Shown here: positions 18,190-38,939 of the stretch, piece after piece | How the letters are laid out: every line of letters starts with the position of its first letter | Numbering within the stretch: position 1 is the first letter of the stretch | DNA from: Tessaracoccus defluvii | Lineage (GTDB): Bacteria > Actinomycetota > Actinomycetes > Propionibacteriales > Propionibacteriaceae | Assembly: GCF_014489575.1 (NCBI RefSeq) | Contig: NZ_CP060789.1 | Span: 124,001-188,000 of the forward strand | Length of the DNA: 64,000 nt | Reading direction: 5' to 3' | Translations under genes and position numbers: made by a program | Notes under the pieces: generated by a model | The model's database searches: none | Told to the model about the DNA's origin: nothing | What the model saw: the letters and a program-made list of their open reading frames with translations, nothing else

Positions 18190-19146
18190 GTGAACGGGCG
18201 GTCGGACGAGACGGCGGCCCGCCCGCGGGTCCTGTTCATCGGCGGCATCGGACGCAGCGGCACGACGGTGCTCGAGCGGAGTCTCGGAACCGACCCCCGC
18301 GTCGTCTCGCTCGGCGAGGTGACGCATCTGTGGCAACGCAGTCTCCTCGACGGTGAACTGTGCGGCTGCGGCCTCGCCTTCCGGGAATGCGAATTCTGGC
18401 GGCGGGTCGGGGACCAGGGGTTCGGCGGCTGGGACAGGGTCGACGCAGCCCGCCTGGTCGACCTCAAGGACCGGCTCGACCGCTCCCGCCACACGCCGCG
18501 CTATGCCACAGGTGCCGGTGCCGCGAAGTGGCGCGACGACCTGCAGGAGTACGCCGACCACTATCGCCGCGTCTACTCAGCCGCCCTCGAGGTGTCCGGC
18601 GCTCAGGTGGCCATCGACTCCAGCAAGCAGGCCTCCCTGCCGCATATCCTGCTCGGCCAGGGCCTCGACCTGTTGGTGCTCCACTGCGTGCGCGACAGCC
18701 GCGCCGTCGCCTACTCCTGGATGCAGAAGGTGACCAGGCCGGAGGGACGTGCCGGTGAGGAGCGGCAGTACATGAAGCAGTACTCGCCGGCCACCATCGC
18801 CGGCAAGTGGAACCTGCACAACGCCGTCGTGGACGCCCTCGCGTTGCGGGGGCACCGCCCGCTGCGGCTCCGCTACGAGGATTGGGTCGACGATCCCGTC
18901 GGCTCCGTGGCCCGCGTGCTCGCGTTCGCGGGGCTGGCCGTCGAGGGAGACTCAGGGCGCATCGGTGCCACCTGGGTCGACCTGGCGCCGGCCCACACCT
19001 GCAGCGGTAACCCCATGCGGTTCACCGTCGGACGGGTCGACATCCGCCGCGACCAACGGTGGGAGCAGGGCCTGTCACGTCGGGACAGGACCCTGGTCAC
19101 CGCGCTCACCTGGCCGTTCCTGCTGCGCTACGGCTACCGCCCCTGA
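18190..19146 (+). CDS. PAPS-dependent sulfotransferase
   Basis: A 318-residue sulfotransferase that would move sulfate from PAPS to a hydroxyl acceptor. The 5'-phosphosulfate loop is FIGGIGRSGTTVLERSL at residues 16-32. The 3'-phosphate segment is VRDSRAVAYSWM near residue 175. The family's typical CGCG-like stretch appears as LCGCGLAFRECEFW. There is no signal peptide or transmembrane span, so sulfation is probably cytoplasmic. The GTG start is preceded by a GGGGG stretch. It converges on the PAPS synthesis genes with a 4-nt gap, and a second sulfotransferase lies at 34228. Both would depend on those genes. Confidence 0.83.
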   Translation: MNGRSDETAARPRVLFIGGIGRSGTTVLERSLGTDPRVVSLGEVTHLWQRSLLDGELCGCGLAFRECEFWRRVGDQGFGGWDRVDAARLVDLKDRLDRSRHTPRYATGAGAAKWRDDLQEYADHYRRVYSAALEVSGAQVAIDSSKQASLPHILLGQGLDLLVLHCVRDSRAVAYSWMQKVTRPEGRAGEERQYMKQYSPATIAGKWNLHNAVVDALALRGHRPLRLRYEDWVDDPVGSVARVLAFAGLAVEGDSGRIGATWVDLAPAHTCSGNPMRFTVGRVDIRRDQRWEQGLSRRDRTLVTALTWPFLLRYGYRP

Positions 19147-19150
19147 CGGT

Positions 19151-20401
19151 TCAGCTGAGGAAGCCTGCCCCCACCGTCTTGTTCGTGGCCTCGTCGACGA
19201 GGATGACGGACCCTGTCTCCCGGTTGCGCTGGTAGCGGTCCATCATCAGCGGCCGGGTGCAACGCATCCGCACGCGTCCGATGTCGTTGAGACCCAGCGA
19301 ATCGACGCCCTCCACTCGGTGCAGGGTGTTGATGTCGACCCGGTAGAGGACCTCCTTGATCTTGACGCGTGCCCACGCCGTCGTGTGTTTGACGGCGAGG
19401 GTGCGGCCGGGCGTGAGCCGGGTCGTCTCGTCCATCCAGCACACGCGTAGATCCAGGTCCTGGATCTGCTCGGTCGGGTTCTCGGGGCGCACCAGGACGT
19501 CTCCGCGGGAGATGTCCAGCTCGTCGGAGAGGCGCAGCACCACCGACATCGGCGGGTAGGCCTTCTTGAGTGGGCCGGACGGCCCGTCGATGCCCTCGAC
19601 GGTGGTGGTGAAGCCGCTGGGCAGCACCATGATGTCGTCGCCGACCTTGATGACGCCGCTCGCCACGGCACCGGCGTAGCCGCGGTAGTCACGCACCTTC
19701 GACTGCTGTGGCCGGATGACGTACTGGACGGGGAAGCGGACATCGACAAGGTTGCGGTCGCTGGACACGTGCAGGTTCTCTAGGTGGTACAGCAGTGTCG
19801 GCCCGTCGTACCAGCCCAGATGTTCGCTGTGGCGGGTCACGTTGTCGCCCATCAGCGCCGAGATGGGGATGAAGGTGAGATCGGGCACGTTCAGGCGGGT
19901 GGCGAAGGCGGTGAACTCGCTCACCACAGCCTGATAGGCCGCCTCGGAGTAGTCGACGAGGTCCATCTTGTTGACGCACACCACCAGGTGCCGTACACCT
20001 AACAGCGTGGTCAGGAAGGCGTGTCGGCGGCTCTGCTCGGTCATCCCGTGGCGCACGTCGATCAGGATCAGGGCTGCGTCCGCGGTCGACGCCCCGGTCA
20101 CCATGTTGCGTGTGTACTGGGGATGTCCGGGGGTGTCCGCGATGATGAATTTGCGCCGGGGAGTGGCGAAGTAGCGGTAGGCGACGTCGATGGTGATGCC
20201 CTGCTCACGCTCAGCCCGGAGGCCGTCGGTGAGCAGCGCGAGGTCGACGTAGTCGTCGCCCCGCAGGCGGCTGACCCGCTCGACGGCCTCGTACTGGTCG
20301 ACGAAGATGCCCTTCGAGTCGTAGAGCAGGCGTCCGATCAGGGTCGACTTGCCATCATCCACGCTGCCGGCGGTGGCGAAGCGAAGCAGTCCTCGTGACA
20401 T
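19151..20401 (-). CDS. cysN: Sulfate adenylyltransferase large (GTPase) subunit
   Basis: A 416-residue EF-Tu-like GTPase that drives APS formation by CysD. The G1 loop is GSVDDGKST, the switch region is REQGITIDVAYR, G3 is DTPGHPQY and G4 is NKMDLVD. Two beta-barrel domains follow. There is no fused APS kinase at the C-terminus; the kinase is a separate gene here. The ATG overlaps the cysD stop (TGATG). In this locus no cysH, cysI or other sulfate-reduction gene appears, so the product is likely spent on sulfation. Confidence 0.95.
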   Translation of the reverse strand: MSRGLLRFATAGSVDDGKSTLIGRLLYDSKGIFVDQYEAVERVSRLRGDDYVDLALLTDGLRAEREQGITIDVAYRYFATPRRKFIIADTPGHPQYTRNMVTGASTADAALILIDVRHGMTEQSRRHAFLTTLLGVRHLVVCVNKMDLVDYSEAAYQAVVSEFTAFATRLNVPDLTFIPISALMGDNVTRHSEHLGWYDGPTLLYHLENLHVSSDRNLVDVRFPVQYVIRPQQSKVRDYRGYAGAVASGVIKVGDDIMVLPSGFTTTVEGIDGPSGPLKKAYPPMSVVLRLSDELDISRGDVLVRPENPTEQIQDLDLRVCWMDETTRLTPGRTLAVKHTTAWARVKIKEVLYRVDINTLHRVEGVDSLGLNDIGRVRMRCTRPLMMDRYQRNRETGSVILVDEATNKTVGAGFLS

Positions 20402-21303
20402 CAGAAGTACCCCTCTTTCTTCCTGTCTTCCATTGCGGCCTCGCTGACCCGGTCGTCGCCGCGCGTCGCGCCGCGCTCCGTGTAGCGGGTCACCGCGATC
20501 TCTTCCACGATCTTCTCGTTGGTGTCGGCCTGCGACTCGACGGCGGCCGTCAGGTTGGCGTCGCCCATGGTGCGGTAGCGCACCGCCCGGCGCGTCACCG
20601 TCTCGTTCTCCCGGGCAGGGACGAACTCGTTGACGACGTAGAGCATCGAGTCGCGCTCGACGACATCCCGCTCCGCGGCGTAGTAGAGCTCGGGGATGGG
20701 CAGGTCTTCGTGGGCGATGTACGCCCAGGTGTCGAGCTCCGTCCAGTTGGACAGGGGGAAGACCCGGATGCTCTCGCCCTGGTTGACCTTTCCGTTGTAC
20801 AGCCGCCACAGCTCCGGCCGCTGGTTCTTCGGGTCCCACTGACCGAACTCGTCACGGAACGAGAAGACGCGTTCCTTGGCCCTGGCCTTCTCCTCGTCGC
20901 GGCGGGCGCCGCCGAACAGGGCGTCGATGCCGTGGGCCTCTGCCGCACGCAGCAGTACCGGCGTCTGGATGCGGTTGCGGGATCCGCCGGGGGCCTCCTG
21001 CACGAACCCCTCGGCGATGGCGTCGGGTACGGAGGCCACGATCAACTCGACCTCGAGTTCGGCGATCCACCTGTCACGGAACCGTAGGACCTCGGGAAAA
21101 TTCAGCCCGGTGTCGACGTGCATGAACGGGAACGGGATCCGTGCGGGCTGGAACGCCTTGCGGGCCAACGCGCTCATCACGACGGAATCCTTGCCGCCTG
21201 AGAACAGGAGGCAGGGATGGCGCATCTCTGCCGCGACCTCACGGATGATGTGGATGCTCTCCGCCTCCAGCTCTTGCAGATGGCTCAGAGTCAACTTGCC
21301 CAT
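20401..21303 (-). CDS. cysD: Sulfate adenylyltransferase small subunit
   Basis: A 300-residue member of the PP-loop ATP pyrophosphatase family that makes APS from ATP and sulfate. The PP-loop is LLFSGGKDSVVM at about residues 32-43. HVDTGLNFPEVL and the C-terminal RKKEGYF are diagnostic. The frame is open upstream, but the ATG at 21303 is the conserved start. The last codons of cysQ overlap it by 13 nt, so translation is coupled. Confidence 0.96.
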   Translation of the reverse strand: MGKLTLSHLQELEAESIHIIREVAAEMRHPCLLFSGGKDSVVMSALARKAFQPARIPFPFMHVDTGLNFPEVLRFRDRWIAELEVELIVASVPDAIAEGFVQEAPGGSRNRIQTPVLLRAAEAHGIDALFGGARRDEEKARAKERVFSFRDEFGQWDPKNQRPELWRLYNGKVNQGESIRVFPLSNWTELDTWAYIAHEDLPIPELYYAAERDVVERDSMLYVVNEFVPARENETVTRRAVRYRTMGDANLTAAVESQADTNEKIVEEIAVTRYTERGATRGDDRVSEAAMEDRKKEGYF

Positions 21304-22064
21304 TTTTCTCCCTCCAGGGTGCGAATCAGCGCCAGCAGGCTGGCAGCCCTGTCCCGGCGACAGACGACGAGATCGGGCAGCCAGGGTGAGGCGGCGTTGT
21401 AGATGAGTGGCGAGCCGTCGATGCGGCTGGCGTGCAGGCCGACCCCGAGGGCGACGGCGGCCGGGGCGGCGGAGTCCCACTCATATTGGCCGCCGGCGTG
21501 GACATAGGCGTCGACGTCGCCGGTGACCACCGCCATCGTCTTGACCCCGGCCGACCCCATGGCCACGAACTCCACGGGCACGGCGTCGGCCAGATCACGC
21601 ACGAGCCCCGGGGGGCGCGTGCGGCTGACGGCTATCCGCAGGGGGCCGTCCCCCGTCCCCGGTGAGGGGAGCGGGGGATCATCGGAGCGGTAGACGAGGC
21701 TGCGGGCCGGCAGCCCGACGGCTCCGCCCGCCAACCCGACGGCTCTGGTCCAGAGGGCCACGTGGACGGCGTAGTCGTCGCGCCACCGGCCATCAGATGC
21801 CCGCTCGGCGAACTCGCGGCTACCGTCGAGTGGGTCGATGATCCAGACGCGGTCGGCCTCGAGCCGGGCCGGATTGTCCGCGGATTCCTCCGAGAGCACC
21901 GCATCGTGCGGGCGCTCGGCGGCCAGCCGCGCCAGAAGGTACCGGTTCGAGGCGAGGTCGCCCTCGGTGCCGGTCGGGGATCCCCTGCGTCGCAGCCCCT
22001 CGAGCAGTTCACCTGCGCCGGTCGCGAGCGACGCGGCCAGCTCCAGGTCAGGATCGACAGGCAT
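21291..22064 (-). CDS. cysQ: 3'(2'),5'-bisphosphate nucleotidase, CysQ type
   Basis: A 257-residue FIG-superfamily phosphatase that turns PAP, the by-product of sulfotransferases, into AMP. The metal-binding motifs are SEESAD near residue 65, IDPLDGSREF near residue 85 and WDSAAPAAV near residue 210. It sits in the middle of the PAPS synthesis genes, which favours the PAP role over inositol phosphatase. It overlaps cysD downstream and cysC upstream by a few bases. Confidence 0.88.
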   Translation of the reverse strand: MPVDPDLELAASLATGAGELLEGLRRRGSPTGTEGDLASNRYLLARLAAERPHDAVLSEESADNPARLEADRVWIIDPLDGSREFAERASDGRWRDDYAVHVALWTRAVGLAGGAVGLPARSLVYRSDDPPLPSPGTGDGPLRIAVSRTRPPGLVRDLADAVPVEFVAMGSAGVKTMAVVTGDVDAYVHAGGQYEWDSAAPAAVALGVGLHASRIDGSPLIYNAASPWLPDLVVCRRDRAASLLALIRTLEGEKWAS

Positions 22065-22935
22065 CAGTTGCCTCCTTCCGGCGTGAGAACGGCGGCGATC
22101 TGTTCGGCCGCCTCCTCGGGGGTGTGGGTGGTCGTGTCCACGGTCACCGTCGGCTGCTGCGGCTCCTCGTACGGCGCCGAGACGCCGGTGAAGTTCTCCA
22201 GCAGGCCGGAGCGCGCCAGCGAGTAGAGTCCCTTGCGGTCCCGCGCCTCGCAGTCCGCCAGCGGAGTGGCCAGCCACACCTCCACGAAGGTGGCGCCAGC
22301 GCGTTCGGCCATGCCGCGGGCCTCGGCGCGTTGCTCCGCGTAGGGGGCGATGAGCGCGGTGATCGCGATGCCACCGGCTCCGGCGAGCAGGGAGGCCACC
22401 CAGGACACTCTCCGCACGTTCGTCGCCCTGCTCGCCTCGTCGAAGCCGAGGTCGGGGGAGAGGAAGCGGCGTACATCGTCGCCGTCCAGCAACGTCACGG
22501 GTCTCGGATCGCCGACGAGTCGCTCGCGCAGGGCCCGCCCCACCGTGGACTTGCCCGCCCCGGACAGCCCGGTCAGAAAGACGACGGCCCGCCCCTGCTC
22601 GGCGGTGCGGCCGGCTCGGGATGCGTCGCAGGCAGTTCGGCGGCCAGCAGGTCGACCGCGCCCGGCAGGTGCCAGTCGATCTCCTCGACCGGGCGCAGAC
22701 TCTGCGCCTCCAGCCTGTCACCGGTGAGAGTCGCCACCAGCAGAGGGGTGCTGTCGGGGTCACGGACCACGAAAGTCCGGGCCCGGCCCACGGCTCGGCG
22801 ACCGGCCTGGGTCAGGCGCAGGGGGGTGCCGAGCCGCCCCTGCTGGAACAGCTCGACTCGGGCCAGGTCGGATCCGCGGACGAACAGCGAGGGCAGTGAG
22901 GCGATCCACGCCCAGTCGGGATGTCGGTCAGGCAT
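22064..22935 (-). pseudogene. cysC: Adenylylsulfate (APS) kinase with extra N-terminal domain, one-base frameshift
   Basis: The C-terminal part is APS kinase, which makes PAPS: FLTGLSGAGKST is the P-loop, then LDGDDVRRFLSPDLGF and ENFTGVSAPYEEP. No start codon precedes the P-loop in its own frame. Instead a 121-codon frame begins at ATG 22935 (MPDRHPDWAWIASLPSLFVR...) and ends just before it. Adding one C/G to the run at 22592-22595 joins the two as SRG-RAVVFLTG, giving 290 residues. The N-terminal 110 residues look like a PUA-type domain akin to the front of ATP sulfurylases, with LFQQGRLGTPLRL and VRDPDSTPLLVATL. I cannot name it firmly. The start overlaps the flippase stop by 8 nt. Confidence 0.75.
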
Positions 22936-24448
22936 TCCTCCTCCTTCCGGGAAGCAGAGCGCGCAGCGCTCGGAGCCGGAGGACCGAGCGGTTGCGCCAG
23001 AGGGCGGCGGCGTAGACGCAACCGCCCAGGACAAGGAGTCCGATGAGGGTGAACACGTTCGCATGGCCGGTCAGCGTCAGGATCGCGCCCGGAACCGCGA
23101 AGGCCACGACCGCACTGACGGCGACGATGACGCTCGCCCGGGAGATGGGGCTGAGCCCGACGTGCAGCCCGACCTGGACGTAGGCGAGCACGGACTTGGT
23201 CACGATGGCGGCGCACCAGGCTACTGCCGCCCCGAGGATCCCGAGCGGAGGGATCAGCACCAGGCAGCCGACGAGGTCGATCACCAGCGCGGCGAGGGCG
23301 TTCCCGAGGCTCAGCCAGCTGCGTCCCGCCATCAGGAGGATGGTGTCGATCGGCCCGGCGGCGATGCCGACGAGCATGCCGACCGCCATCACGAGCACGA
23401 CGGCCACGCCGTCGGCCGCGAAGCCGCTGCCGAACAGCTGCAGGTAGACCCCGGCCATCGAGGCCACCACCAGGTAGATGGGCCAGGCGACGGCGATGTT
23501 CCAGGCCGTGGTCGTGCGAAAGACCTCACCGAGGGCCGCTCTCTGCTCGGTGGCCAGCAGGTGGGTGAAGCGGGGCTGCACCACCTGGGCGATGGCCTGC
23601 TGTCCGAGTTGCCCCAGCGGCACGAACCGCGTTGCCGCTGTGTAGACGGCGGCGGCCGCCGGGGTGAGCATCGCGGCGATGAGGATGATGTCGAGGCGCT
23701 GCACGATCAGCTGGGCCACCTGGGCAATGCTCCGTGGGGCCGTGAACAGCCAGAACTCCCGCACCGCACCAGGAGCCCTGCCCCGGGGCGCGTCCGCCGG
23801 GAACGTCCGTCTCGTGACGCGCAGCAGCCCGATGACGGCGACGGGGGCCAGCAGGACGGCGGGTGCCACCCACGCCACCGCCAGCGGGATGAGGCCGGTG
23901 GCGGCCGCGGCGCAGGCCGCGACGAGCCCCAGCTGCATCAGGCTGCGGGCGAGCTTGTCGATCAGCACCGTCTGGGCGATGTTGGCGAAGGCCCGGCTCG
24001 CTCCCAGCGCCCAGTGGCCCACAGCGGCGGCGACCACGGCGACCGAGAAGACACGGATCAGGCCCGGGCCCTCGTCCCCGGAGATGCCGATGGCCACCGC
24101 GATCGGGGCGGCGGCGACCCAGAGCCCGACCGCTGCGACGGCACTGACCGTGACGGTTACCAGCGCCGTGTTGCTGAGGCAGGCCCGCGCCCAGTCCCAC
24201 CGACCCTCGGCGACGTGGCGCAGGACGAACCGTCCGAGCCCGGTCTCGATGCCGAGACCGGCGACGGCCAGCACGATGAGGAACAGGGAGGAGGCGCTGA
24301 ACAGCGCGCCGGCGTCGTCCTTCGAGAAGGCCTGGGTGATGACCACGACGACGGCGAAGTTGGCGACGGCCGCCACGCCTGCCCCGGCGAGCGCCGCGGT
24401 GCCGCCCCGGGCTATCCGCTCGAGCTGGCTCCCCGCGACGCTGGACAT
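22928..24448 (-). CDS. Wzx-type polysaccharide flippase
   Basis: A 506-residue MATE/MOP-superfamily protein with about 12-14 hydrophobic spans. It would flip undecaprenyl-linked repeat units across the membrane. The family pattern FSKDDAGALFSASSLFLI, the FVPLGQLGQQAIAQVVQPRF segment and the general layout match PST-type exporters. It lies between a Wzz-type gene and the PAPS genes, with one-to-few-base junctions, so it belongs to one polysaccharide operon. Substrate specificity cannot be read from the sequence. Confidence 0.8.
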   Translation of the reverse strand: MSSVAGSQLERIARGGTAALAGAGVAAVANFAVVVVITQAFSKDDAGALFSASSLFLIVLAVAGLGIETGLGRFVLRHVAEGRWDWARACLSNTALVTVTVSAVAAVGLWVAAAPIAVAIGISGDEGPGLIRVFSVAVVAAAVGHWALGASRAFANIAQTVLIDKLARSLMQLGLVAACAAAATGLIPLAVAWVAPAVLLAPVAVIGLLRVTRRTFPADAPRGRAPGAVREFWLFTAPRSIAQVAQLIVQRLDIILIAAMLTPAAAAVYTAATRFVPLGQLGQQAIAQVVQPRFTHLLATEQRAALGEVFRTTTAWNIAVAWPIYLVVASMAGVYLQLFGSGFAADGVAVVLVMAVGMLVGIAAGPIDTILLMAGRSWLSLGNALAALVIDLVGCLVLIPPLGILGAAVAWCAAIVTKSVLAYVQVGLHVGLSPISRASVIVAVSAVVAFAVPGAILTLTGHANVFTLIGLLVLGGCVYAAALWRNRSVLRLRALRALLPGRRRNA

Positions 24449-25807
24449 CTAGATCCGCCTCACCACAACCGCGCCGAGTGCGCGTTCCGCCCACCTGCCG
24501 GCGCCGCGGGGCGCCGCGTCGGCCGTCTCCAGGATGACGCGGTCGGCGAGGGGACCGACGGCCGTCGCGGCATACGAGTCCTCCCCTCCCGCGGCGATGA
24601 GGACGATGTCCGCCTGCTCTCGCAGGGACTGCACGAGAGCGCCCATGCGGGGGGAAAGCAGACGGTCCTCGGACCCGTCCAGATCGCCACGGGCGATGAG
24701 TGTGTGCGGCGCACTGATTTCGATGTCGGCGGCGTCGTCGGCGAGGAGATCGGCGAGCGTGGCGTCCACCGCGCCGTCGCGGCAGGCGCCGGAGGTGTCG
24801 ACGACCACCGTCGCGTTCCCCGTGGCGGCGACGGCACGGGCGAGGTGGTCGACTGTACGGGGAGGCTCGCCGTCGAGGGTGGCCACGAGCCAGGTCAGGG
24901 GGCGGCGGGTGTCGGCGGTCAGCGCCGCGAGGGCGAGGCCGCGCAGTGACCCGGAGACCGGCTCGGCATCGTGTGTGGCGAGATCCTCGGGGCCGAGGGA
25001 GGCCAGGAGAGGCAGCCGGATCGCGCCCAGCGGGCCGAAGGGACGCCGCCGGAGGAGGTGGATGAGGGCACCGAGGAGGAAGCCCGCGACGAGACCCGCG
25101 GCTGCCAGTGCCCACCACTCGCGCCAGGTGGGCGGCGCCTGCACCCGTGCGGGCGTCACCACCTGTCCCGGATCGAAGGGCCCTGCCCGGAGTTGCGCGA
25201 CGCGCGACTGGAGAGACACCAGCTGCGTGTTGATCGTGTTGAGCTGCGCGGTCAGGCTGATGACCTGTTCGGCGGGGGCCGCGGACAGCTGCTCCTGGAC
25301 GGCGTCGCGTTCCTCCTGCCGCGCGGTGATGTCCTCGCGGAGTCGGTTGATCTGCATCTCCGACTGGCTGACTGCGCGGTCGCGGCGGGCCGCGAGGAAG
25401 TCGACGGCGAAGGCCTGTGCGAGTTCGGCTGCCGCCTCGGGGCGGCGCGTGGCCACTGCGATGCGGATCAGCTGGGTGTTGGTGGGGACGGTGATCGTGA
25501 GGCTGCCCACCAGGGCGTCCGGCGTGAAGTCGGTGCCCGTCGAGGCGATCACCCGGTTCACGACCTCCTCCGAGCTCACCAGCTGGGCTTCGGTGACCAT
25601 ATTCGTGAGGTTGTCGCCGCGGGTGCTGGTGGAGAAGGGGTTCCCGTCGAGGGGATTGAGCAGGATCGTTGCCATGGCCTCCGAACCGGCCGGACGCAGC
25701 AGGCCCGCCGCCGCACCGGCAATCCCACCGAGCAGTGCGAGCACGAGCGCGGCCACGAGCGCGCGGCGCCGCGAACGCCAACGGTGCCCCCGCTCGGATC
25801 CGGCCAT
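24449..25807 (-). CDS. Wzz-type chain-length protein with degenerate tyrosine-kinase-like domain
   Basis: 452 residues. An N-terminal transmembrane span (about 16-37) is followed by a Wzz periplasmic domain with a coiled-coil hairpin (about 145-200), then a second span (about 225-248). The cytoplasmic C-terminal part has the layout of a BY-kinase (VVVDTSGACRDG, then ADIVLIAAGG), but the Walker A site is replaced by LDGEPPRTV with no Gly-Lys-Ser/Thr. There is no tyrosine cluster at the end. It probably regulates chain length without kinase activity. TACTGT at 25850-25855 may be its -10. Confidence 0.75.
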   Translation of the reverse strand: MAGSERGHRWRSRRRALVAALVLALLGGIAGAAAGLLRPAGSEAMATILLNPLDGNPFSTSTRGDNLTNMVTEAQLVSSEEVVNRVIASTGTDFTPDALVGSLTITVPTNTQLIRIAVATRRPEAAAELAQAFAVDFLAARRDRAVSQSEMQINRLREDITARQEERDAVQEQLSAAPAEQVISLTAQLNTINTQLVSLQSRVAQLRAGPFDPGQVVTPARVQAPPTWREWWALAAAGLVAGFLLGALIHLLRRRPFGPLGAIRLPLLASLGPEDLATHDAEPVSGSLRGLALAALTADTRRPLTWLVATLDGEPPRTVDHLARAVAATGNATVVVDTSGACRDGAVDATLADLLADDAADIEISAPHTLIARGDLDGSEDRLLSPRMGALVQSLREQADIVLIAAGGEDSYAATAVGPLADRVILETADAAPRGAGRWAERALGAVVVRRI

Positions 25808-27453: not shown

Positions 27454-27455
27454 AT

Positions 27456-29004: not shown

Positions 29005-32000
29005 CACTGCGCCTGGAGGGCGAGGGCAGTGACCACCACGCGGTTCGCCGAACCGGAAAGGGTGATCGTGACGGGGTCGAACGACCCTGCCGTGAGGTAG
29101 CCGCCGGAGTCAGCGAGCCAGGCGTGGACCGCGCCACTCGGAGAGCCCGTGCTGGCGCTTCGCTCTGTCAGTGAAGGTGGCAGCGTCGCGGTCAGTGCCG
29201 AGTTGGCCTTCACTCCCATGTAGACGACTGGCAGGGCGTGTCCCTGCAGGTCCAGAGCGGGACTCTGTCCCGAACTGGATGCGTTGACGCTGGTGGCGCC
29301 GTTGTCGATCACGCTCAGCGTGCCCGTGCTGGAGCGGTAGGCCGCCACCGTGAGGTCGCCCTTGGCGTAGGCCGAAAGAGCGACCGCGACGGTCGAACCG
29401 GGATCGGTGGCCGTCGCTACCTTGCTCCAGGCGCGAACGGCGATGCCGCTGCCGTCGGTGGCCCGGACCTCGGTCCATCCGGTCGGCGCGGTGATCGTCG
29501 CGGTGCTGTTGATCGTCAGGAACAGCAGCAGGGCGTCCCCTTCCACTGCGGAGGCTGGGATCTGGGCGGTGTGGTTGTTGCGGTTCCCGTTGGTCGAGGC
29601 GGCCGCGACGAAGGCCACGGATGCCGCGCTCGGCTCACGGGCCTGCACCGACTGCTGGGTCTGATCTGTCGCAGCATCGTTGTCGGTCACGGTGAGCGTG
29701 ACCGTGTAGGTGCCGGCTGCAGCGTACTCGTGCTGTGTCGACTCGCCCGTGCCGGTGGTGCCGTCGCCGAAGTTCCACGCGTATGCGGAGATCGTCCCGT
29801 CCGGATCGGCGGAATCGCCTGCGTCGAACGAACACTCGAGCAACGTGCATGTGGCCGAGAAGTCAGCGGTCGGGGCCTGGTTCACGCGGGTGACGGTGAC
29901 CGGGTGGGTGGTGGTGGAGGTCTCCGACGCCGCCGTGGTGATCGTGAGGGTCACCGTGAAGGTGCCGCTCGCCGTGTAGGCGTGCGACGCCTGGGCCCCC
30001 GAGCCGGTGTGGCCGTCGCCGAAGTTCCACGCGTAGCTCGTGATCGTGGATCCAGGTGCGTTGGAGCCCGCCGCGTCGAAGGTGCAGGTCAGCGAGGTGC
30101 AGGAACTGGTGAAGGCGGCTGTGGGCGGGAGGCCCGCGCCCTGGCCGTTCGCGCCCTGGTACAGGAACAGGGCGCGGGAATTCCAGTTGACGCCGTCCAC
30201 GCCCGGGCCGGAGACCACCTGTGCGGTGTTGGCTACCGGAGCCCCGTTGACGGGGCCGTGCTGCCAGGTGATCGAGCGGAGGGTGCCGTCGGCCGTCGCC
30301 CAGTAGAGCTTGTCTCCGCCCAGGAACATGCCGCGGACCTGCGAGAAGTTGATGCCGGTGACCCCTGTCGAGGCCGTGAGGGGCAGTGCGCCCACGATGT
30401 CGCTCTCGAGGTTGATGTAGCGGTAGTACAGCGTGGAACTGTTGTTCAGGGTGTAGTAGATGCGCCCCGAGTCATAGAACATGCCGGTCGCCGCCGCGAT
30501 GTCGTTGCGCCAGTTCTGCAGCACCGCCAGCTCGTCGTGTCCGTTCACGGGCGTGGGTGTTCCGTACGTGCTGCCGTTGAAGGTGCGCCGTGACATCAGG
30601 CCGTCCGACGTCGCGAGATACAGCTCACCGTTGACCATGAAGGCGCCACGCACCCCCGCCCAGGTGATCCCGCCCTCGGCGACAGCCGCGGTCGCGCCGG
30701 CTGTCGTGCCGTTGAACGAGCGCCGGGCCAGCGGCGGGGTGCCGCCCTGCGCGGCCACCGCGTACACGTTGTTCGGGAAGGGGGCCGTGCTGTAGGCCGG
30801 GACCTGGAGGCCCGCGGCGGGGAACATGGCGATGCGTCCGTGGTACTCCCAGGCCCCGATCCGGTCGGTGTCGGAGGCCACCCAGAGGCCCTGCGCGGTG
30901 TTCAGGAGATCGAAGACGCCGACCCCCCGGGCGCGCGTCGGGTTCCAGCTGAACGGTATGCCGTTGAGGGGTTGAGCGCAGCGATGCCGGGCCGGGAGAC
31001 CGCCCCCGGGCCGATGCGGTCGCCGGCGTACGGGTTGTTCCACCAGCGCTGGTGGCCGCCGATGTAGACGGCGGTGTCGGTCACCTCGACGGCGTACGAC
31101 GTGTCGCCGCCCGTGTAGTCGACCCACGACGGGGCGATCGCCGTCCCGGTGGAGGTCGTCTCGAACCGCGAGGCGGTGTCGCAGGCGATGTTGGTTCCGT
31201 AGCCGCGGTAGGCGCCCGTCGTGGAGACCACGAAGAAGCTGCCGTCAGGGGCGTAGTCCACGTCGCGCATGTAGGTGTCGAAGGCGCGTGCACACGCGGC
31301 AGTGAAGAAGTCGGTCTGGAAGTTCGCGGGCGTGGCCGAGGGCCCCGAGACGTCGAGCACGAAGAGCTGGTGGTTGCGGACGCCGTCGAGGGTGTCGAAG
31401 TTGCCGACCGCCGTCAGTCGCCCGCCGCCGTGGTCGATCTTCATCACGTTGGTGAAGCTGCCCTCGAGGTGGACACCGGCGATCGTGCGGTTGAAGTACG
31501 CGTCGAACGCGCCCGTGGCCGCGTTGAGCGTGGCGAGGGCCGGCCTGGCCTGGCCGCGGATGTGGGTGAATGTTCCGGCGACCCAGAGCCTGCCGTTCAG
31601 CAGGGCCAGGTCCTTGACGACGCCCGTCGGGGAGCCGCCGTTGAACGTCGTGACGAGAGAGCCATCGGAGACCCTGATGCGGGCCAGGTTGCGCACGCTC
31701 TGGCCGGCGATGCTCGTGAAGCTGCCGCCCACGTACACGGTGCCGTCACCGGCGGGCAGGACCACGTTGACCGTGCCGTTGGGTGCTGGGTTGAAGGCGG
31801 TGCTGATCGCGCCTGTCGAGGCGTCGAAGGCCATCAGACGGTTGCGTGTCAGGACCGTGTTGCTGTTGTTGTTGCGGACCTGGCTGAACGAGCCGCCGGC
31901 GACCATCGTCGATCCCACCTGGACGACCGAGTACACGGAGCCGTCGAGTGCGTGGGGCGTGAACCCCGCTGGGTCGTCGCTGACCAGCCTGCCCGCCGGT

Positions 32001-32095
32001 TGGGACACTGCGGCCGCCGGCTCTCCTCCCAGAGTCAGTGTCTGGAGGGCGGCGAGAACGGCCGCCAGAATCAGAACGAGAGAGCGTCGCATCAT
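29004..32095 (-). pseudogene. Large secreted beta-propeller/PKD surface protein, one-base frameshift
   Basis: With one base restored the protein has 1030 residues. A signal peptide (residues 1-29) is followed by propeller-like repeats to about residue 650, with recurring units such as VYVGGSFTSIAG and LWVAGTFTHIRG. Two PKD domains follow (YAWNFGDGHTG and YAWNFGDGTTG), then a C-terminal beta domain of unknown type (residues about 830-1030). The frame breaks after GIAALNP at the GGGG run 30968-30971; one more base gives ALNPLNGIPFSWNP and reads through. PKD and propeller domains usually bind glycans or proteins at the surface. Being embedded in the polysaccharide operon, it may hold or organise the polymer. 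There is no sortase signal. Confidence 0.72.
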
Positions 32096-32137
32096 CTACC
32101 CCAATTCGATGCAGAGCCAGAATTGAGGCTAAGTATG

Positions 32138-32167: not shown

Positions 32168-32173
32168 GTTTTT

Positions 32174-32221
32174 CTAGCCGATCGGCTAGTCAAAGTGAGC
32201 TTTTTCTGGCCGATCGGCTAG
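32174..32221. promoter_or_regulatory. Twin 16-bp palindromes, 32 bp apart
   Basis: CTAGCCGATCGGCTAG at 32174-32189 is a perfect palindrome. CTGGCCGATCGGCTAG at 32206-32221 is the same with one change. Their centres are 32 bp apart, three turns of DNA. Each has a T-run on its left. The second copy is inside the last codons of the polymerase gene; the first is just upstream of the -35 of the surface protein gene. There is no loop and no T-run after the stem in the reading direction, so a terminator is unlikely. A dimeric activator or repressor binding twice is the best reading. Confidence 0.6.
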
Positions 32222-34241
32222 TGGCCCCGGTGGCGAGGCCCACGATGAGCCCGATCCCGAGGCCGCTCGCGCCGAACATCGGCAGCTCACGCGGCACTTC
32301 CGTCGCAGCGTCCCGGCGGATCGCCTCGCCCGCCTGCGTGGGCGTCAGCAGGTTGTCGTCGATGGCCTCGACCACCTCGGCGATCTCCGGGGAGTCAGTG
32401 GTCCCCGTCTCCTCCGTGAGGTCCGCCAGGCGGCCGTAGAGCGTGGCGAGGACCCGGCCCTGCCGGGTCGAGAGATACGCGCTCCTCGTCTCCAGGTAGG
32501 CCTGTGTCACGGCGTCGAGGGTCGGCCCGAGTGCAGCCGCGTCGGGGCCCCGGAGACTGACCACGAGGACGTCCGACGAGGGGACGGCCGAGATCCGCAG
32601 CCGCGCCCGCAGCTCCTCCTGGCCCTCGACGGAGGGGACGACCCGGGCGAGCGTCTGCTGCGCCACCAGGAGCGAGGCCTCCGTGTCCACCGTGATGCGC
32701 CGCGGCGCCCTGGCCTCGAGAGCCAGCGGCAGATGCGTCGGCGTCTCGATGAGCATGACGTACTGTGTCGCTACGAACTCCCGGGGAGCGAGGAAGCCCG
32801 CGCCCAGGCCCGCCGCCAACCCCGCGAGCCCCATGACCACGAGCTGTGTCCGGTGGCGCCGAACGGCCGCGAGGAGGTCGCGCGGTGAGCCCGGGGGGCC
32901 AGTCGCCCTCCCGTCGCGCCAGGCGAGCCCCGCTGCCACGAAGACGATCATCAGCGGGAGGCCGAGGGTGTCGTAGACGAACATCTGGATGAGGAAGAAC
33001 AGGATGACCAGGGTCCCCAGTTCCGCGGGGAGCGTCAGGGAACGGGCGGCGTGGACCAGTGCGATCAGCAGGAAGAGGAGGAAGAACGCTGCCCCGACCA
33101 GTCCGTGGGAGAAGATCAGCATCCACAGGTGACCCTGCGTGCCGAGCGGCGGCACCCCGCAGGCCGGACAGTCAGGGGTCGACCCGCCCGCGATGGAGGC
33201 GAAGCTGCCCTGCACGTCGCGTGTGCCGCCGAACCCGATGACCGGCGACGCATTGACGGTCGCGGAGACCGTGTCGATGAGCAGCTGCTCGCGCCGGTCG
33301 TTGCTGTGCTGGTTCGCGAAGCGTTCGCCCACGAGGTCGCCGAGCGGGCTGGCCACGAACGCGACGGCTGCGATGCCGAGCAGGACGGCCGCAGCCACGA
33401 GCGCCCCGAAACGGCCGCGACGGGCGAGGACGACCACCACATAGAGGACCCCGAAAGCCAGGCACGCCCACAGCCCCCGGTTCAGCGAGTAGACGATGGG
33501 GACGAGGCTGACGAGCACCACCGGTGCCACGGCGAGCCGCTGCCAGCGACGCGTTGAGCGCAGCCAGCCCACCAGGAGGAAGGGCAGGCTCAGGGCGATG
33601 GCGCTGCCCCAGGTGTTGGCGTACCGGAAGGGGGCCTTCGGCCGCGCCTCGGCCCGGCCGAGGACCGTCTGGATGTCGGCGAGGCCGGGATGGATCAGCG
33701 ACCTGACGAACCCGTTGGCGGTGAACCCTCTGGGTAGCACCAGCTCGAGCAGCGAGCGCAGGCCGAGGTTCGGCGTCAACATGCCGGCGACGCCCCCGAG
33801 GGTCGCCCACACATAGATCCAGCCGACCGCGATGGCCACTGTGACGAAGGGCAGCTCCCTGCGATCGTGGCTGAGAACCCAGACCACGGCGACGCCGCAG
33901 GACAGGTACATCGCAAGTCCGAAGGCCCAGACGATGAGCCGTCCGACGCCTCCAGCATCGGGCACGGCCCCCGGCGCGATCGTCGACTGTGCGGCAACCG
34001 AGAGGACCACCCAGACCAGGAACGCGCCGTACCAGCCGAAGCCCCGGGGGAGGCGGACGCCGCCGCGACGGCGCAGCTGGACGACCATCACCGCCGCGGC
34101 CACCGCGGGCATGAAAGAGGCCAGGCCGAGAAGCCACCAGAGGGGGTACCCGACGGTGAGCGCGGTCAGCGGCCAGTGCGCCGGCCAGCTCCGGTGCCGG
34201 GAGTGGCCGGTGAGGACGGCGCTCGACTCAGTCGTCGACAT
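32190..34241 (-). CDS. Wzy-type polymerase/O-antigen-ligase-like protein fused to a Wzz-type domain
   Basis: 683 residues. The first 455 hold about 11 hydrophobic spans with the O-antigen ligase/polymerase layout, including a large outer loop with the conserved-type GFGGTRD and GTQGHLWMLIFSHGLVG. Residues about 465-683 are a Wzz-like unit: a span (VVMGLAGLAAGLGAGFL), an extracytoplasmic alpha/beta domain, and a last span (GASGLGIGLIVGLATG). Wzy joins repeat units and Wzz sets length; here both are on one chain. The ATG at 34241 is preferred over a GTG at 34250; the start overlaps the sulfotransferase gene by 14 nt. Confidence 0.72.
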   Translation of the reverse strand: MSTTESSAVLTGHSRHRSWPAHWPLTALTVGYPLWWLLGLASFMPAVAAAVMVVQLRRRGGVRLPRGFGWYGAFLVWVVLSVAAQSTIAPGAVPDAGGVGRLIVWAFGLAMYLSCGVAVVWVLSHDRRELPFVTVAIAVGWIYVWATLGGVAGMLTPNLGLRSLLELVLPRGFTANGFVRSLIHPGLADIQTVLGRAEARPKAPFRYANTWGSAIALSLPFLLVGWLRSTRRWQRLAVAPVVLVSLVPIVYSLNRGLWACLAFGVLYVVVVLARRGRFGALVAAAVLLGIAAVAFVASPLGDLVGERFANQHSNDRREQLLIDTVSATVNASPVIGFGGTRDVQGSFASIAGGSTPDCPACGVPPLGTQGHLWMLIFSHGLVGAAFFLLFLLIALVHAARSLTLPAELGTLVILFFLIQMFVYDTLGLPLMIVFVAAGLAWRDGRATGPPGSPRDLLAAVRRHRTQLVVMGLAGLAAGLGAGFLAPREFVATQYVMLIETPTHLPLALEARAPRRITVDTEASLLVAQQTLARVVPSVEGQEELRARLRISAVPSSDVLVVSLRGPDAAALGPTLDAVTQAYLETRSAYLSTRQGRVLATLYGRLADLTEETGTTDSPEIAEVVEAIDDNLLTPTQAGEAIRRDAATEVPRELPMFGASGLGIGLIVGLATGATSRSARKSSL

Positions 34242-35130
34242 CCCCGTCACCCTGACGCCAGTGCGGCGTCCGGCCCATGAGCGCTGCGAGCGCCCTGTCG
34301 TCCTCGGCGAAGGAGTCCATCAGCCGCCGGCGGAGGGCAGTGTCCATCGGGTCCCGTGACTGGGCGTTGTGCCTGCCCACCTCCTCCGGCTGCCAGGGAG
34401 CGAGGCCGAGAGCGTCGAACAGCGCCGTCAGCTCGCCGGGATCGGTGAAGAGCCTGTCGGCGTCGACGATGTGCACCCGTTCGCTCCCCACGGCATCGAT
34501 GAACCGTTGGATCTGCACTGCGTAACGCCCGCGGGCGAGATAGCTGTGGTGGCGGTGATGGTGACTGAGGTAGGTCGGGTCCGCACGGATCCGGTCCTCC
34601 TCTCCGGCCAGTCGCTCCGGTTCCAGGGCGATGGCCGTCTCGAAATCCTCGGTCTCGAAGCCGCGGACGAACTCGTGGCGGTGCGCTGAGTAGGCCCGCT
34701 CGACGGGATCGCGCACCATCACCACGATGTGCACCCCGGGCAGTTCGCGGCCGATGCGTTCCGCAGCCAGCGGATGGAACAGGTAGTAGCCGGACGACTC
34801 GAAGGTCTTGGCGCGCCCTCCGGTGCGGCGCCGCGCCGGCCATGCCAGCGGGAAGTGGCCGCGGTACCACCGCTGGCCCCTGGCGTGATGGATGTCGAAG
34901 TACCAGATGCCCTTGCTCACCGTCGGGCGCACGACGTCCGGGTGTTCACTCAGCACCCGGAACAACGTCGTCGTCCCCGCCCGGGACGCGCCCACCACGA
35001 TGAAGCTGGGTTGCAGGCGGAAGCGGGCGGTGAGCATCCCCCAGCCGAGCACCATCCTCCGCAGCAGCGCGCGCGCCGGCGCCGGCATCGCGTCCCTCGA
35101 TCTCCCGGTCAACGCACGCAGCGATCCCAT
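34228..35130 (-). CDS. PAPS-dependent carbohydrate sulfotransferase
   Basis: A 300-residue enzyme of the heparan/NodH-like sulfotransferase type. The 5'-PSB loop is VVGASRAGTTTLFRVL at about 44-59, with the catalytic Lys candidate in SKGIWYFD. The 3'-phosphate segment is VMVRDPVERAYSAHRHE at about 137-153. The C-terminal RHNAQSRDPM resembles the PAP-binding end of carbohydrate sulfotransferases. It is the second sulfotransferase of the locus and the one embedded directly between polymerase and other polymer genes. This is the strongest sign that the polymer itself is sulfated. Confidence 0.85.
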   Translation of the reverse strand: MGSLRALTGRSRDAMPAPARALLRRMVLGWGMLTARFRLQPSFIVVGASRAGTTTLFRVLSEHPDVVRPTVSKGIWYFDIHHARGQRWYRGHFPLAWPARRRTGGRAKTFESSGYYLFHPLAAERIGRELPGVHIVVMVRDPVERAYSAHRHEFVRGFETEDFETAIALEPERLAGEEDRIRADPTYLSHHHRHHSYLARGRYAVQIQRFIDAVGSERVHIVDADRLFTDPGELTALFDALGLAPWQPEEVGRHNAQSRDPMDTALRRRLMDSFAEDDRALAALMGRTPHWRQGDGDVDD

Positions 35131-35134
35131 GACC

Positions 35135-36364
35135 TCAATCCCCCCTCAGATGGCCGGTCCGTGCCAGCCAGGCCGACAGCGCCAGGATGCAGGCATTCAG
35201 GCGTGACCCGACGAGGTGTCCGCTGGCCGACGTCGCCTGGAGCAGATAGCGCTCGATGATGGCGGCCAGGTACACCGCGCCGACGGTGTGTGCGGCGCGG
35301 GCATCGCCGACCCCGCGGAGGGCCTGTTCCATCCCACGCGTCACCGCCGCCTCGTCGGGGCCAGCGGCCCGCACGGCCAGGTTGACGCAGTGATGGAACC
35401 GGTCGAGGCCGCGCACGACGTCCGTCTCGAAGCGTTCGAAGTCCCACAGCTGGAGGCCGCCACGGGCGCCTCTCGCCATGTTCCAGGGGGTCCAGTCCCC
35501 GTGCCAGGCGCCCGTCTCCAGCGTGTCCGGGGCTGCCCGCTCGACCGCCGCGACAAGGTCCGCGGGGCGGGGGTCGGAGGCGGCACGGAGGCTGGCCGAC
35601 ATCCTCCGCCACTGGGGCACAGCGGTGAGCGGCATGTACCCGCCGTCGAAGGCCCGGGAGAAGGCGTCCATCTCCGCGGAGGGGGCGAGGGCATCGCCGC
35701 GGCGGGGGCGACGTGAGCGCAGGGCCGTCATGGTCACGACCGGGTGCCCCCGCCAGGTGGTCTGTGCCACGAGCCCAGGGGTCTCGATGCCAGGCACGGC
35801 GCCGTGGACTCTCCGCAGGGCGTCCGCCTCGCGCAGGAGGTGGGGGGCCGAGTCGGGCGAGAGCCCCACCTTCGCGAATGCCAGCGTGCGGCCCCGGGCG
35901 TCGAAGGCCTGCACCACGGGTTTGCGGTTGACCCTCTCGGTGCCGATCGTCACGGCGATCCGCACAGGTTCGCCCAGCACGCCGGCGAGGTGCGCGCCCA
36001 GCGACCCATCCCCGTCGTCGCGGATGACGATGCGGCCCCCTCCCGCGAGACGGGCCGGTCCCACCGCGCGGACCACGACGGCGCCGAGTGCCCGCGCGAC
36101 GCCCTCCCGCGGGCCCAGGGCGGAGCTGTACCGGCGCAGCGCCCCCGCCGCTGCGCGCCCGTCGTCAGGGACGAGGGCGCGCGGGCGGCCGCTGCCGGGG
36201 ACCGGGACGAGTGCTGCAGCGCCGGGCGCGACGTATCGCCGACGGGAGAGGGCGATGTCGGCCCCGGGCCAGAGGTCGGAGACCGTCGACATGAGGTCGG
36301 CGAGGGCTCCGGTGCCCCCGTCGGGCAGGGCCGCTCCGGCTACGCGGATTCGTCGGCCGACCAT
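35135..36364 (-). CDS. Aminoglycoside-phosphotransferase-fold (APH-like) kinase of unknown substrate
   Basis: 409 residues. Residues from about 150 have the APH/choline-kinase fold: HLLREADALRRVHG in the N-lobe, catalytic WHGDWTPWNMA near residue 290 and the metal-binding LWDFERFETD about 20 residues later. The first 140 residues have no domain I recognise. Such kinases phosphorylate sugars, lipids or small molecules; in polysaccharide loci they may modify a repeat unit. It sits 4 nt from the sulfotransferase and is divergent from the GT2 gene. TAGCAT (36373-36378) is 8 nt before the ATG, so it may be leaderless. Confidence 0.65.
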   Translation of the reverse strand: MVGRRIRVAGAALPDGGTGALADLMSTVSDLWPGADIALSRRRYVAPGAAALVPVPGSGRPRALVPDDGRAAAGALRRYSSALGPREGVARALGAVVVRAVGPARLAGGGRIVIRDDGDGSLGAHLAGVLGEPVRIAVTIGTERVNRKPVVQAFDARGRTLAFAKVGLSPDSAPHLLREADALRRVHGAVPGIETPGLVAQTTWRGHPVVTMTALRSRRPRRGDALAPSAEMDAFSRAFDGGYMPLTAVPQWRRMSASLRAASDPRPADLVAAVERAAPDTLETGAWHGDWTPWNMARGARGGLQLWDFERFETDVVRGLDRFHHCVNLAVRAAGPDEAAVTRGMEQALRGVGDARAAHTVGAVYLAAIIERYLLQATSASGHLVGSRLNACILALSAWLARTGHLRGD

Positions 36365-36434
36365 GAAGGTGCATGCTATATCTAGTCGATCCGATCCGCG
36401 GGGGAACTCCCGCAGCAGTGGAGGGGGATCGATC

Positions 36435-37370
36435 GTGACCGACCAAGTTGTGCCTCCGCCCGAGAGGGCCCCGGCGATCGACGTGGTGATCTGCACCCAC
36501 AACCGTCCGGACCTGCTGCGCGTCGCCGTCGACGCCGTGCTGGCCCAGGACTACGCGGGCAAGGTGACCGTGGTTGTCGTGTTCGACCGCAGCGAGCCCG
36601 ACCTCTCCCTTGAGCGGCACGATCCTGCACGGCGGGTGCTGGTCGTGACCAACACCCGTACCGGGGGACTGGCGGGGGCCCGTAACTCGGGCGTCCTGGC
36701 CGGTGGGTCGCCACTGGTCGCGTTCTGTGACGATGACGACGCCTGGGAGCCGGACAAGCTCACCAGACAGGTGCGCAGGCTCCTCTACACCGGCGCGCTC
36801 ACCTGCGTCACCGGCATCCGGATCCAGTACGGCGACCACAGCAGTGTCCGGCTCGCCCGCGCGGATGAGATGACGCTGGAGCGGCTGGTGCGCCGTCGTG
36901 TCATGCCGGCCCACCCCTCGTCGGTACTGGTGCGCCGTGAGGCTCTCCTCGGGCCGATCGGCCTGGTCGACGAGCACATCCCCGGCAGTTACGCAGAGGA
37001 CTACGACTGGATCCTGCGGGCAGCGCTCGCGGGCGACATCTGCGTCGTGGAGGAGCCGCTCGTCCGCGTGATGTGGGGACAGTCGCTCTTTTCGGGACGG
37101 TGGCGCACCATCATCGAGGCACTCGACTACATGGTCGACAAGTTCCCCCAGTTCCAGGCGGACCGGGGGGCGCTGGCACGCATCCGTGGTCAGCAGGCCT
37201 TCGGCCACGCGGCGTTGGGGGAACGTCGGCGATCGCTGGGGAAGGTGTGGGAGACGATGCGGCTCAATCCGGCGGAGCCACGTGCCTGGGTCGCGCTGCC
37301 GGTGGCTGTGGGACTGGTGAAGGCCGACACCGTGATGGGCGCGCTGCACCGCCGGGGGCACGGGATCTGA
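36435..37370 (+). CDS. GT2-family glycosyltransferase
   Basis: A 311-residue GT-A fold transferase. VVICTHNRPDLLR is the N-terminal nucleotide-sugar strand, FCDDDDAWEPDKL contains the metal-binding DxD, and YAEDYDWILRAAL has the expected ED of the acceptor site. It would add one sugar to the lipid-linked repeat unit from an NDP-sugar in the cytoplasm. The frame is open far upstream, but the GTG at 36435 has GGAGGGGG 7 nt before it and gives the usual N-terminus. It heads the plus-strand arm of the polysaccharide locus, ahead of the priming transferase. Confidence 0.87.
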   Translation: MTDQVVPPPERAPAIDVVICTHNRPDLLRVAVDAVLAQDYAGKVTVVVVFDRSEPDLSLERHDPARRVLVVTNTRTGGLAGARNSGVLAGGSPLVAFCDDDDAWEPDKLTRQVRRLLYTGALTCVTGIRIQYGDHSSVRLARADEMTLERLVRRRVMPAHPSSVLVRREALLGPIGLVDEHIPGSYAEDYDWILRAALAGDICVVEEPLVRVMWGQSLFSGRWRTIIEALDYMVDKFPQFQADRGALARIRGQQAFGHAALGERRRSLGKVWETMRLNPAEPRAWVALPVAVGLVKADTVMGALHRRGHGI

Positions 37371-37383: not shown

Positions 37384-37412
37384 TTGAGCTGAGCCGCTTC
37401 CGGTGTAACAAT
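37384..37412 (+). promoter_or_regulatory. Promoter candidate for the priming transferase
   Basis: TTGAGC (37384-37389), 16 nt, then TAACAAT (37406-37412), in an AT-richer stretch after the GT2 stop. The start codon is 71 nt downstream. Confidence 0.35.
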
Positions 37413-37482
37413 GCGGAATCGGTGATCGCCTCTGGGGGGTGTGGGGATCCCTCGGACGCCGCGGTCGCAGAGGGATGGAATC

Positions 37483-38939
37483 ATGACCGCAGCGGATCTT
37501 GAGATTCGGATCGGATGGGGGCTGGTCGGCGAAGCTGCCGCCAGGCTTGTGGAAGGCAGTACACACCGGAAACGACTGCTCCTGGCGGCCGCAGACGGTG
37601 GTGTGATCGCCTTCGTGGGTGTCGTCGCACATACCGTCCGCTTCGGGTGGCCGACCGACGCGGGGCTGTTGCCCTTCTGGATCTTCGCCGCGCTGCCGCT
37701 GGCGTGGCTCTCCCTGTTGACGGTGGTGGGCGCCTATTCGCTGCCGCAGCTCCAGACCGGCATGGACGAGTACCACCGGGTGAACCTGGCGTCGCTCACG
37801 CTCGCGGGGGTGATCGGCGTCGGCTGCTATCTGCTGGAGGTCGAGCTGTCGCGGACCTTCTTCCTCATCACGTTCGTTGCCGGCGTCCCCCTGCTCCTGG
37901 CAATCCGGCTGATCCGGCGCAGGCTCTGCAACCACCTGCGGACGCTGGGCATGCTGACTGTGCCGGTCGTGGTGGCCGGATCCGCAGAGCACGTCGACGA
38001 GGTCGTGCGCGCCCTGCACCGCGAGAAGTGGCTCGGCTACCGGGTCGTCGGCGCGCTCACGCCCGACGACATCCGGGAGACTCCCGCCGGGACTCCCGTG
38101 CTCGGCTCCGTCGCAGACGTGGCGGAGATCGTCGCAGACATCGACCTCGAGGCGGTCATCTTCGCCGAGGGGTCCTTCGCGACGTCGCAGGAGTTCAAAC
38201 GCCTCGCCTGGTCGCTGGAGCGACACTCGACGCAGACCATCGTCGCGCCCGCGCTCAGCGACGTCTCGGCGGGACGCCTCGCCGTCCGCCCCATCGCGGG
38301 GCTGCCGTTGGTCTTCGTCGACCGGCCCCACGCCGTCGCGGCCTCCCGCTGGGGCAAGCGGATCTTCGACGTCGTCGGTTCGGCCACCCTGCTCCTGCTG
38401 AGCGCACCCGTCATCGGGCTTGCGGCGGTGGCCATCTGGTGGGAGGACCGCGGCCCCGTCTTCTTCCGGCAGACCCGCGTTGGCCGCTGGGGGAGGAGTT
38501 CGAGTGCTTCAAGATGCGCTCCATGGTCGTCGACGCGGAGGCGCGGAAGGCGGAACTGGAGGCGCACAACGAGGGGGCCGGGGTGCTGTTCAAGATGACC
38601 CATGACCCCCGCATCACGCGCGTCGGACGGTTCATCCGCCGGTTCTCCATCGACGAGTTGCCGCAGTTCCTCAACGTGCTGCGCGGCGACATGAGCCTGG
38701 TGGGCCCCCGTCCGGCGCTGCCGAACGAGGTGGCCCGCTACGACAGCGACACCACGCGCCGACTCGACGTGCGCCCCGGCCTGACCGGCCTGTGGCAGGT
38801 GTCCGGACGGTCGAACCTGTCGTGGGACGAGACCGTCCGCCTCGACGTGTACTACGTGGACAACTGGTCGATGATGGCCGACATCATCATCATCGCCAGG
38901 ACGGCCAGGGCTGTGCTCGGGTCGCAGGGGGCCTACTGA
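37483..38939 (+). pseudogene. Polyprenyl-phosphate sugar phosphotransferase (priming enzyme), one-base frameshift
   Basis: The first enzyme of polymer synthesis: it puts a sugar-1-phosphate on undecaprenyl phosphate. The N-terminal part has four to five spans and a CoA-binding-like domain (VPVVVAGSAEHVDEVV). The C-terminal catalytic unit begins FRQTRVGRWG and continues EEFECFKMRSMV, DELPQFLNVLRGDMSLVGPRPALP and RPGLTGLWQVSGR. The frame breaks in the G-run 38489-38493; one more G gives RWGEEFECFKMRSM and a 485-residue protein of normal length. The break hits a highly conserved site, so an assembly error is likely. ATG 37483 is preferred over GTG 37441. Confidence 0.85.

Follow-up and report, generated by a model that had tools for sequence, protein, structure and literature searches.

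Predicted locus for a sulfated exopolysaccharide, including genes for PAPS synthesis, in a Tessaracoccus defluvii genome lacking CysH and CysI

Why would a polysaccharide locus carry a full set of genes for activating sulfate? The question is raised by positions 18190 to 38939 of a 64,000-nucleotide stretch of the Tessaracoccus defluvii genome (assembly GCF_014489575.1, contig NZ_CP060789.1, forward strand; C1:124001-188000, hereafter the window), where cysN, cysD, cysQ, and cysC lie among sulfotransferase and polysaccharide genes between purL on one side and an M20 peptidase gene on the other. An earlier note on this DNA had proposed that the sulfate goes onto the polymer. Our data support that proposal through the lack of CysH and CysI in the whole genome, the residues of the sulfotransferases that would bind 3′-phosphoadenosine 5′-phosphosulfate (PAPS), the recurrence of the gene block in other actinobacteria, and the grouping of CysD. 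We put at roughly 80% the probability that a Wzx/Wzy-dependent extracellular polysaccharide is produced from this locus and that its lipid-linked repeat unit receives sulfate in the cytoplasm; the acceptor, the order of the steps, and the sulfate on the product are what we infer.

The sulfate activation genes form part of a minus-strand run, wzz-wzx-cysC-cysQ-cysD-cysN (25807 to 19151), whose members adjoin or overlap one another; this is the tight operon that the earlier note had described. cysN (19151..20401; GTP_EFTU, 7.7e-40; start set at MSRGLL) encodes the GTPase subunit of sulfate adenylyltransferase, without a CysC fusion, and cysD (20401..21303) a further subunit of the enzyme. cysQ (21291..22064; Inositol_P family, 7.2e-25) encodes a phosphatase for 3′-phosphoadenosine 5′-phosphate (PAP), and the kinase part of cysC, with the P-loop GLSGAGKST, occupies 22064..22597 (APS_kinase, 3.7e-53). 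CysND would produce adenosine 5′-phosphosulfate (APS), CysC would convert APS to PAPS, and CysQ would clear the by-product PAP left by sulfate transfer.

The two sulfotransferase genes named in the earlier note, at 18190 and 34228, were both found and matched Sulfotransfer_3. STa (18190..19146, plus strand, 6.6e-12) is convergent on the cys/wzx/wzz run, and STb (34228..35130, minus strand, 3.2e-11) resembles heparan sulfate sulfotransferases. By sequence, STb matched 14 solved structures, the top one (3rnl, 6.7e-21) described plainly as "Sulfotransferase" and the other 13 being heparan sulfate sulfotransferases (best 1.2e-15), whereas STa matched none. In both proteins an arginine and a serine eight residues apart, which we take to be the site for the 3′-phosphate of PAPS, were 100% conserved: Arg140/Ser148 in 76 aligned rows of STb and Arg168/Ser176 in 40 of STa. 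Family and residue spacing mark both as predicted PAPS-dependent carbohydrate sulfotransferases, with kinship to a solved polysaccharide sulfotransferase in the case of STb. A simple hydropathy scan gave no transmembrane segment in either protein, suggesting that sulfation precedes export. The genome has three Sulfotransfer_3 genes, this being the only sulfotransferase family searched genome-wide, and two of them are in the locus. The third is at C1:2837429 (L159:10950-11885), between ABC-transporter genes and a gene for an FGGY-family carbohydrate kinase.

Genes for making and exporting a polymer account for the rest of the locus, and the polymerase, priming enzyme, GT2, WecG/TagA, and PKD protein of the earlier note are all present in the window. 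A further minus-strand run comprises a gene for a kinase-like protein (35135..36364), STb, a gene for a Wzy-like polymerase (32190..34250; 12 hydrophobic segments), one for a surface protein (29004..32095) with a beta-propeller at 30902-32095 (DUF5122, 5.5e-11) and a PKD part at 29004-~30962 (PKD_4, 1.7e-39), and one for a WecG/TagA/CpsF glycosyltransferase (28249..29007; 5.2e-36). The plus strand carries the genes for the GT2 glycosyltransferase (36438..37370) and the priming sugar transferase (37441..38939; Bac_transf, 1.2e-51). The Wzx flippase (22928..24448) has 14 hydrophobic segments and the Wzz-type chain-length protein (24449..25807) has two. The GH26-like enzyme of the earlier note is present as a gene for a secreted protein (25938..27386, minus strand), with its GH26 identity left in doubt: the product gave no GH26 family-model or solved-structure match, its sole model match is CBM_4_9 at the N terminus (4.7e-9), and since the GH26 motifs were read by eye we call it only GH26-like. 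In the proposed scheme, the priming enzyme, WecG, and GT2 would build the repeat unit, STb and STa would transfer sulfate to it, Wzx would flip it, Wzy polymerize it, and Wzz set the chain length, with the GH26-like and propeller/PKD proteins presumably working outside the cell.

The earlier note had suggested a search for the same colocalized set in related genomes, and the block does recur in many actinobacteria. Loci were chosen by STb, some genomes recurring between sets, and the counts describe the STb neighborhood only. In 80 named loci (the 80 best of 86, with flanks of up to 10 kb, some ended early by contig ends), STb was accompanied by the kinase-like gene in 79, Wzy in 78, Wzx in 72, and GT2 in 70. 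The kinase-like gene, an addition to the earlier gene list, is therefore the most constant partner of STb. WecG, Wzz, and STa were each found in 39 of these loci, CysC in 38, PKD in 35, the propeller in 34, the C-terminal part of the priming enzyme in 29, and the GH26-like protein in 23. Kinase, Wzy, and Wzx were present in 19 of the 40-kb regions of 20 relatives (none of the three in G055, STb 38%) and in 20/20 further regions from the class. Twenty regions from 19 chosen genomes of one family, f40, all had Wzx, Wzy, and the kinase, together with STa (19), GT2 (18), Wzz (18), WecG (15), CysC (12), and CysN (2). The cluster thus includes the PAPS genes frequently, though not in every case.

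As to breadth, STb matched at E ≤1e-30 in 69/394 genomes of the class and 35/138 genera, the window's own included, and in 100/121 genomes of family f40. At E ≤0.001 it matched in 28/96 relatives (own genome included), mostly from other families of the order, some of these matches being distant paralogues. In the Kribbella family (f2), 6/16 genomes had STb, and all six carried cysQ-cysD-cysN near STb, inside the 40-kb region fetched, plus a CysD-CysH pair elsewhere; of the ten f2 genomes lacking STb, three had more than two PAPS_reduct matches as well, and extra PAPS_reduct copies are therefore not exclusive to STb carriers. Sulfated polymers may accordingly be much commoner in actinobacteria than thought.

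Could the PAPS serve mainly another acceptor, be it a small molecule, a lipid, or whatever the third sulfotransferase produces, leaving the polymer sulfated little or not at all? The existence of that third gene, in its setting of transporter and kinase genes, would fit such a use. In families far apart from one another, however, STb adjoins both Wzy and the kinase, and it resembles polysaccharide sulfotransferases, and we consider another main acceptor improbable.

A cluster of this kind is in print. In June 2026, Tezuka and Ohnishi described wps-1 (WpsA-WpsK, among them the DUF4262 protein WpsD and the methyltransferase WpsF) of Actinoplanes missouriensis, for which a sulfated polymer is predicted (PMC13390465). 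According to the portions of that report available to us, all its genes but wpsD are required for normal sporangium formation; a wpsB mutant looks normal but its spore release falls to about a tenth, and a wpsE mutant is mild (PMC13390465). Compared by printed gene content and order, wps-1 and the window share GT2, two different sulfotransferases (one of heparan sulfate type; STa is WpsB-like and STb WpsH-like), a WecG-family transferase, a GH26 or GH26-like protein, Wzx, Wzy, Wzz, and the kinase-like protein (WpsI-like). In the window, wps-1-type content (GT2, WecG type, Wzx, Wzy, Wzz, two sulfotransferases, and kinase) is found within 18190-37370, and f40 genomes have a wps-1-like gene order with homologous genes. 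Unlike wps-1 as printed, the window locus also has cysN, cysD, cysQ, the priming enzyme, and the propeller/PKD protein, and its host genome lacks sulfate reduction (PMC13390465). Tessaracoccus is not known to form sporangia.

Beside wps-1 lies AMIS_7390, a gene of the Sat/APS-kinase family, just as cysC lies in the window locus. Its loss causes a severe defect that was termed "unexpected"; in the available text the authors cite sulfur amino acids and draw no link to sulfation (PMC13390465). Of the 12 f40 regions that carry CysC, 10 have it on the far side of Wzz, where AMIS_7390 stands in A. missouriensis; Wzz gave no match in the remaining two. The simplest reading would be that AMIS_7390 supplies PAPS and is for that reason required for sporangia, a testable answer to a point that the Actinoplanes study left unexplained.

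Several observations weigh against a sulfated polymer made by a Wzx/Wzy pathway. Taken alone, the family-model scores of Wzx (MatE, 0.0072), Wzy (Wzy_C, 5.4e-7, 29.9 bits against a cut-off of 31.7), and Wzz (TIGR01006, 4.8e-8, far below the cut-off) are weak, and their identification draws besides on the conserved neighborhood and the many hydrophobic segments. Fewer than half of the 80 named loci have PAPS genes in the 10 kb around STb (CysC in 38, CysN in 28, CysQ in 27, CysD in 25), partly because the flanks end. AMIS_7390 was not coactivated with wps-1 on day 3 (PMC13390465, in the part available), which also weighs on the PAPS-supply reading of that gene. STb had no match in any of 38 same-genus genomes, and among 19 same-genus stretches fetched beside purL (two of <6 kb; M20 also matched in 13), no window sulfotransferase, cys gene, Wzx, or Wzy matched at E 1e-6; in G028 a priming-enzyme homologue lies beside purL. 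Finally, three genes of the locus (cysC and those for the priming enzyme and the propeller/PKD protein) contain one frame change apiece.

The frame changes might mean that in this strain the locus is falling into decay and yields no product, although relatives make one. In cysC, no start codon lies ahead of the P-loop in the frame for the APS kinase, which ends at 22064 and is preceded by a 120-residue piece in another frame (22573..22935; no Pfam match), whereas in L060, an actinobacterial metagenome-assembled genome, both parts are in a single frame, the N-terminal piece matching that of the window at 45% over 74 residues. The breaks in the priming and propeller/PKD genes fall near 38490 and 30960, respectively. 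Homologues of the three genes lie in one frame, as does propeller/PKD in G083. Outside the locus, an aminotransferase class IV-like gene has a frame change at ~5804-5810 compared with four same-genus relatives, and there is a possible additional break near 58.1 kb compared with two. These breaks in flanking DNA point to sequencing indels, the likeliest cause of those in the locus too, and the remaining locus genes are full length; we consider decay of the locus improbable.

What of cysteine? The genome searched (3,864,792 bases in a single contig, completeness 98.21%, contamination 4.19) has one PAPS_reduct domain, that of the locus CysD, and one APS kinase, the locus CysC; no NIR_SIR domain (sulfite/nitrite reductase family) was found genome-wide. 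Its PurL shares 88-89% identity with proteins from named Tessaracoccus and 88% with one from an Arachnia metagenome-assembled genome, in keeping with a place in or close to Tessaracoccus. It retains the genes for PAPS synthesis while CysH and CysI, and with them assimilatory sulfate reduction, are missing, which extends to the whole genome the earlier note's finding that cysH and cysI are absent from the locus. Identical searches of the 38 same-genus genomes found PAPS_reduct in 17 and NIR_SIR in 18, the 17 all falling within the 18, and the absence from the host is therefore not due to search failure. Over all 96 genomes searched (own included), 70 had PAPS_reduct and 69 NIR_SIR; the former occurred without the latter only in the host and in G039, a 540-contig draft, and the reverse only in G018. 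Sulfate assimilation is itself patchy in the genus, with neither domain in 20/38 same-genus genomes (G001-G038).

PAPS made here would therefore lie off the known route to cysteine. The earlier note had named, as the combination that would tell against it, the absence of a second cysND-cysHI set together with a need for these genes in cysteine synthesis. There is indeed no second set, but such a need cannot hold by the known pathway with cysHI missing altogether, and the combination as a whole fails. A genome that retains PAPS synthesis without CysH and CysI amounts to a natural experiment favoring sulfation.

The history of CysD agrees with this. A tree of 51 rows (the window, 30 locus-borne copies, and 20 chosen from outside STb loci, 10 of them drawn from the 17 same-genus genomes with a copy) was built by a quick method, with midpoint rooting and no bootstrap. 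The window CysD grouped with L060 (82% to the window), L090 (an uncultured Arachnia), and six Kribbella locus copies (SH-aLRT 98), while all ten same-genus copies fell in another group (100). Locus copies from Streptosporangiaceae made up a third group, and locus-borne CysD is thus not one clade. That the cys genes serve assimilation to cysteine and stand beside the polysaccharide locus by accident is very improbable and can be set aside: CysND is the first assimilation step in many bacteria and PAPS_reduct occurs together with NIR_SIR in those 17 same-genus genomes, but the host lacks CysH and CysI, its CysD stands apart from the ten same-genus copies tested, and wzx and wzz interlock with the cys genes in one run.

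Two further known systems share parts of this design. The xss cluster for synechan of Synechocystis sp. PCC 6803, a polymer shown to be sulfated, likewise has a Wzx/Wzy pathway and encodes two sulfotransferases that belong to distinct subfamilies; unlike the window locus it is cyanobacterial, with eight glycosyltransferases and its own regulators, and the text of that paper contains neither "PAPS" nor "cysC" (PMC8205485). The capsule of Cobetia marina KMM 1449, whose solved structure is sulfated, has cysN/cysC, cysD, and cysQ among its polysaccharide genes and a sulfotransferase in the cluster, as does the window; it differs in its ABC-transporter pathway, fused CysN/CysC, sulfate permease gene, and gammaproteobacterial host (PMC11766843, from the part available). 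It counters the statement, made in the accessible text of two of these reports, that among bacteria only cyanobacteria have sulfated polysaccharides (PMC8205485, PMC13390465).

Literature searches found no publication on the full topic for Kribbella, Streptosporangiaceae, or Tessaracoccus, and for actinobacteria and Nocardioides only a sulfatase database and the Cobetia capsule surfaced. The earlier note was justified in saying that such polymers have seldom been described in this part of the actinobacteria, with the qualification that the matching wps-1 cluster appeared in June 2026 (PMC13390465, as available to us); as far as these searches show, this kind of locus was first printed, as a prediction, in that year. 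The present analysis adds the PAPS module in the locus, the host without sulfate reduction, the breadth across the class, and the reading for AMIS_7390.

The CysC proteins have a peculiarity of their own. CysC matched in 56 of 120 loci searched, and 53 of these 56 frames have an N-terminal ATP-sulfurylase signature; none of the 56 has the canonical motif Q-x-R-N-P-x-H-x-x-H, as in solved 1i2d, by which an active Sat would be recognized. An f40 example matched PUA_2, ATP-sulfurylase, and APS_kinase, with the catalytic motif replaced relative to 1i2d. Such noncanonical fusions occur in L235 (3465-4985), L238, L242, L115, and others, and are reduced further in L060 and the window, where Pfam gave no sulfurylase domain. 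The locus CysC proteins would make PAPS from APS supplied by CysND, their own sulfurylase part being presumably inactive. Counting against a dead sulfurylase, 3cr8, the solved structure that the fusion matches best, is likewise noncanonical, so that loss of activity can only be inferred.

The companion kinase-like protein retains a full kinase active site, with H-G-D...N and W-D-x-E-R invariant. An assignment to APH, made by eye, was not upheld by Pfam (0.008, below the cut-off). A model drawn from 26 of the 79 loci carrying the gene (pLDDT 90.4) settled the fold, not the substrate, as that of APH/fructosamine-3-kinase: it matched macrolide and aminoglycoside phosphotransferases and a putative fructosamine-3-kinase, with query-normalized TM-scores of 0.34-0.44 among the 50 matches listed, low values that indicate an N-terminal part not covered by the fold matches. 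We advance only tentatively, as rather doubtful, the wider idea that a sulfated matrix polymer is old and widespread in actinobacteria, with a dedicated PAPS route (an APS kinase-dead sulfurylase fusion plus CysND) and a kinase that phosphorylates the same glycan or its building block. If true, sulfation and sugar phosphorylation would go together in such polymers, as they do in the assembly of animal glycosaminoglycans.

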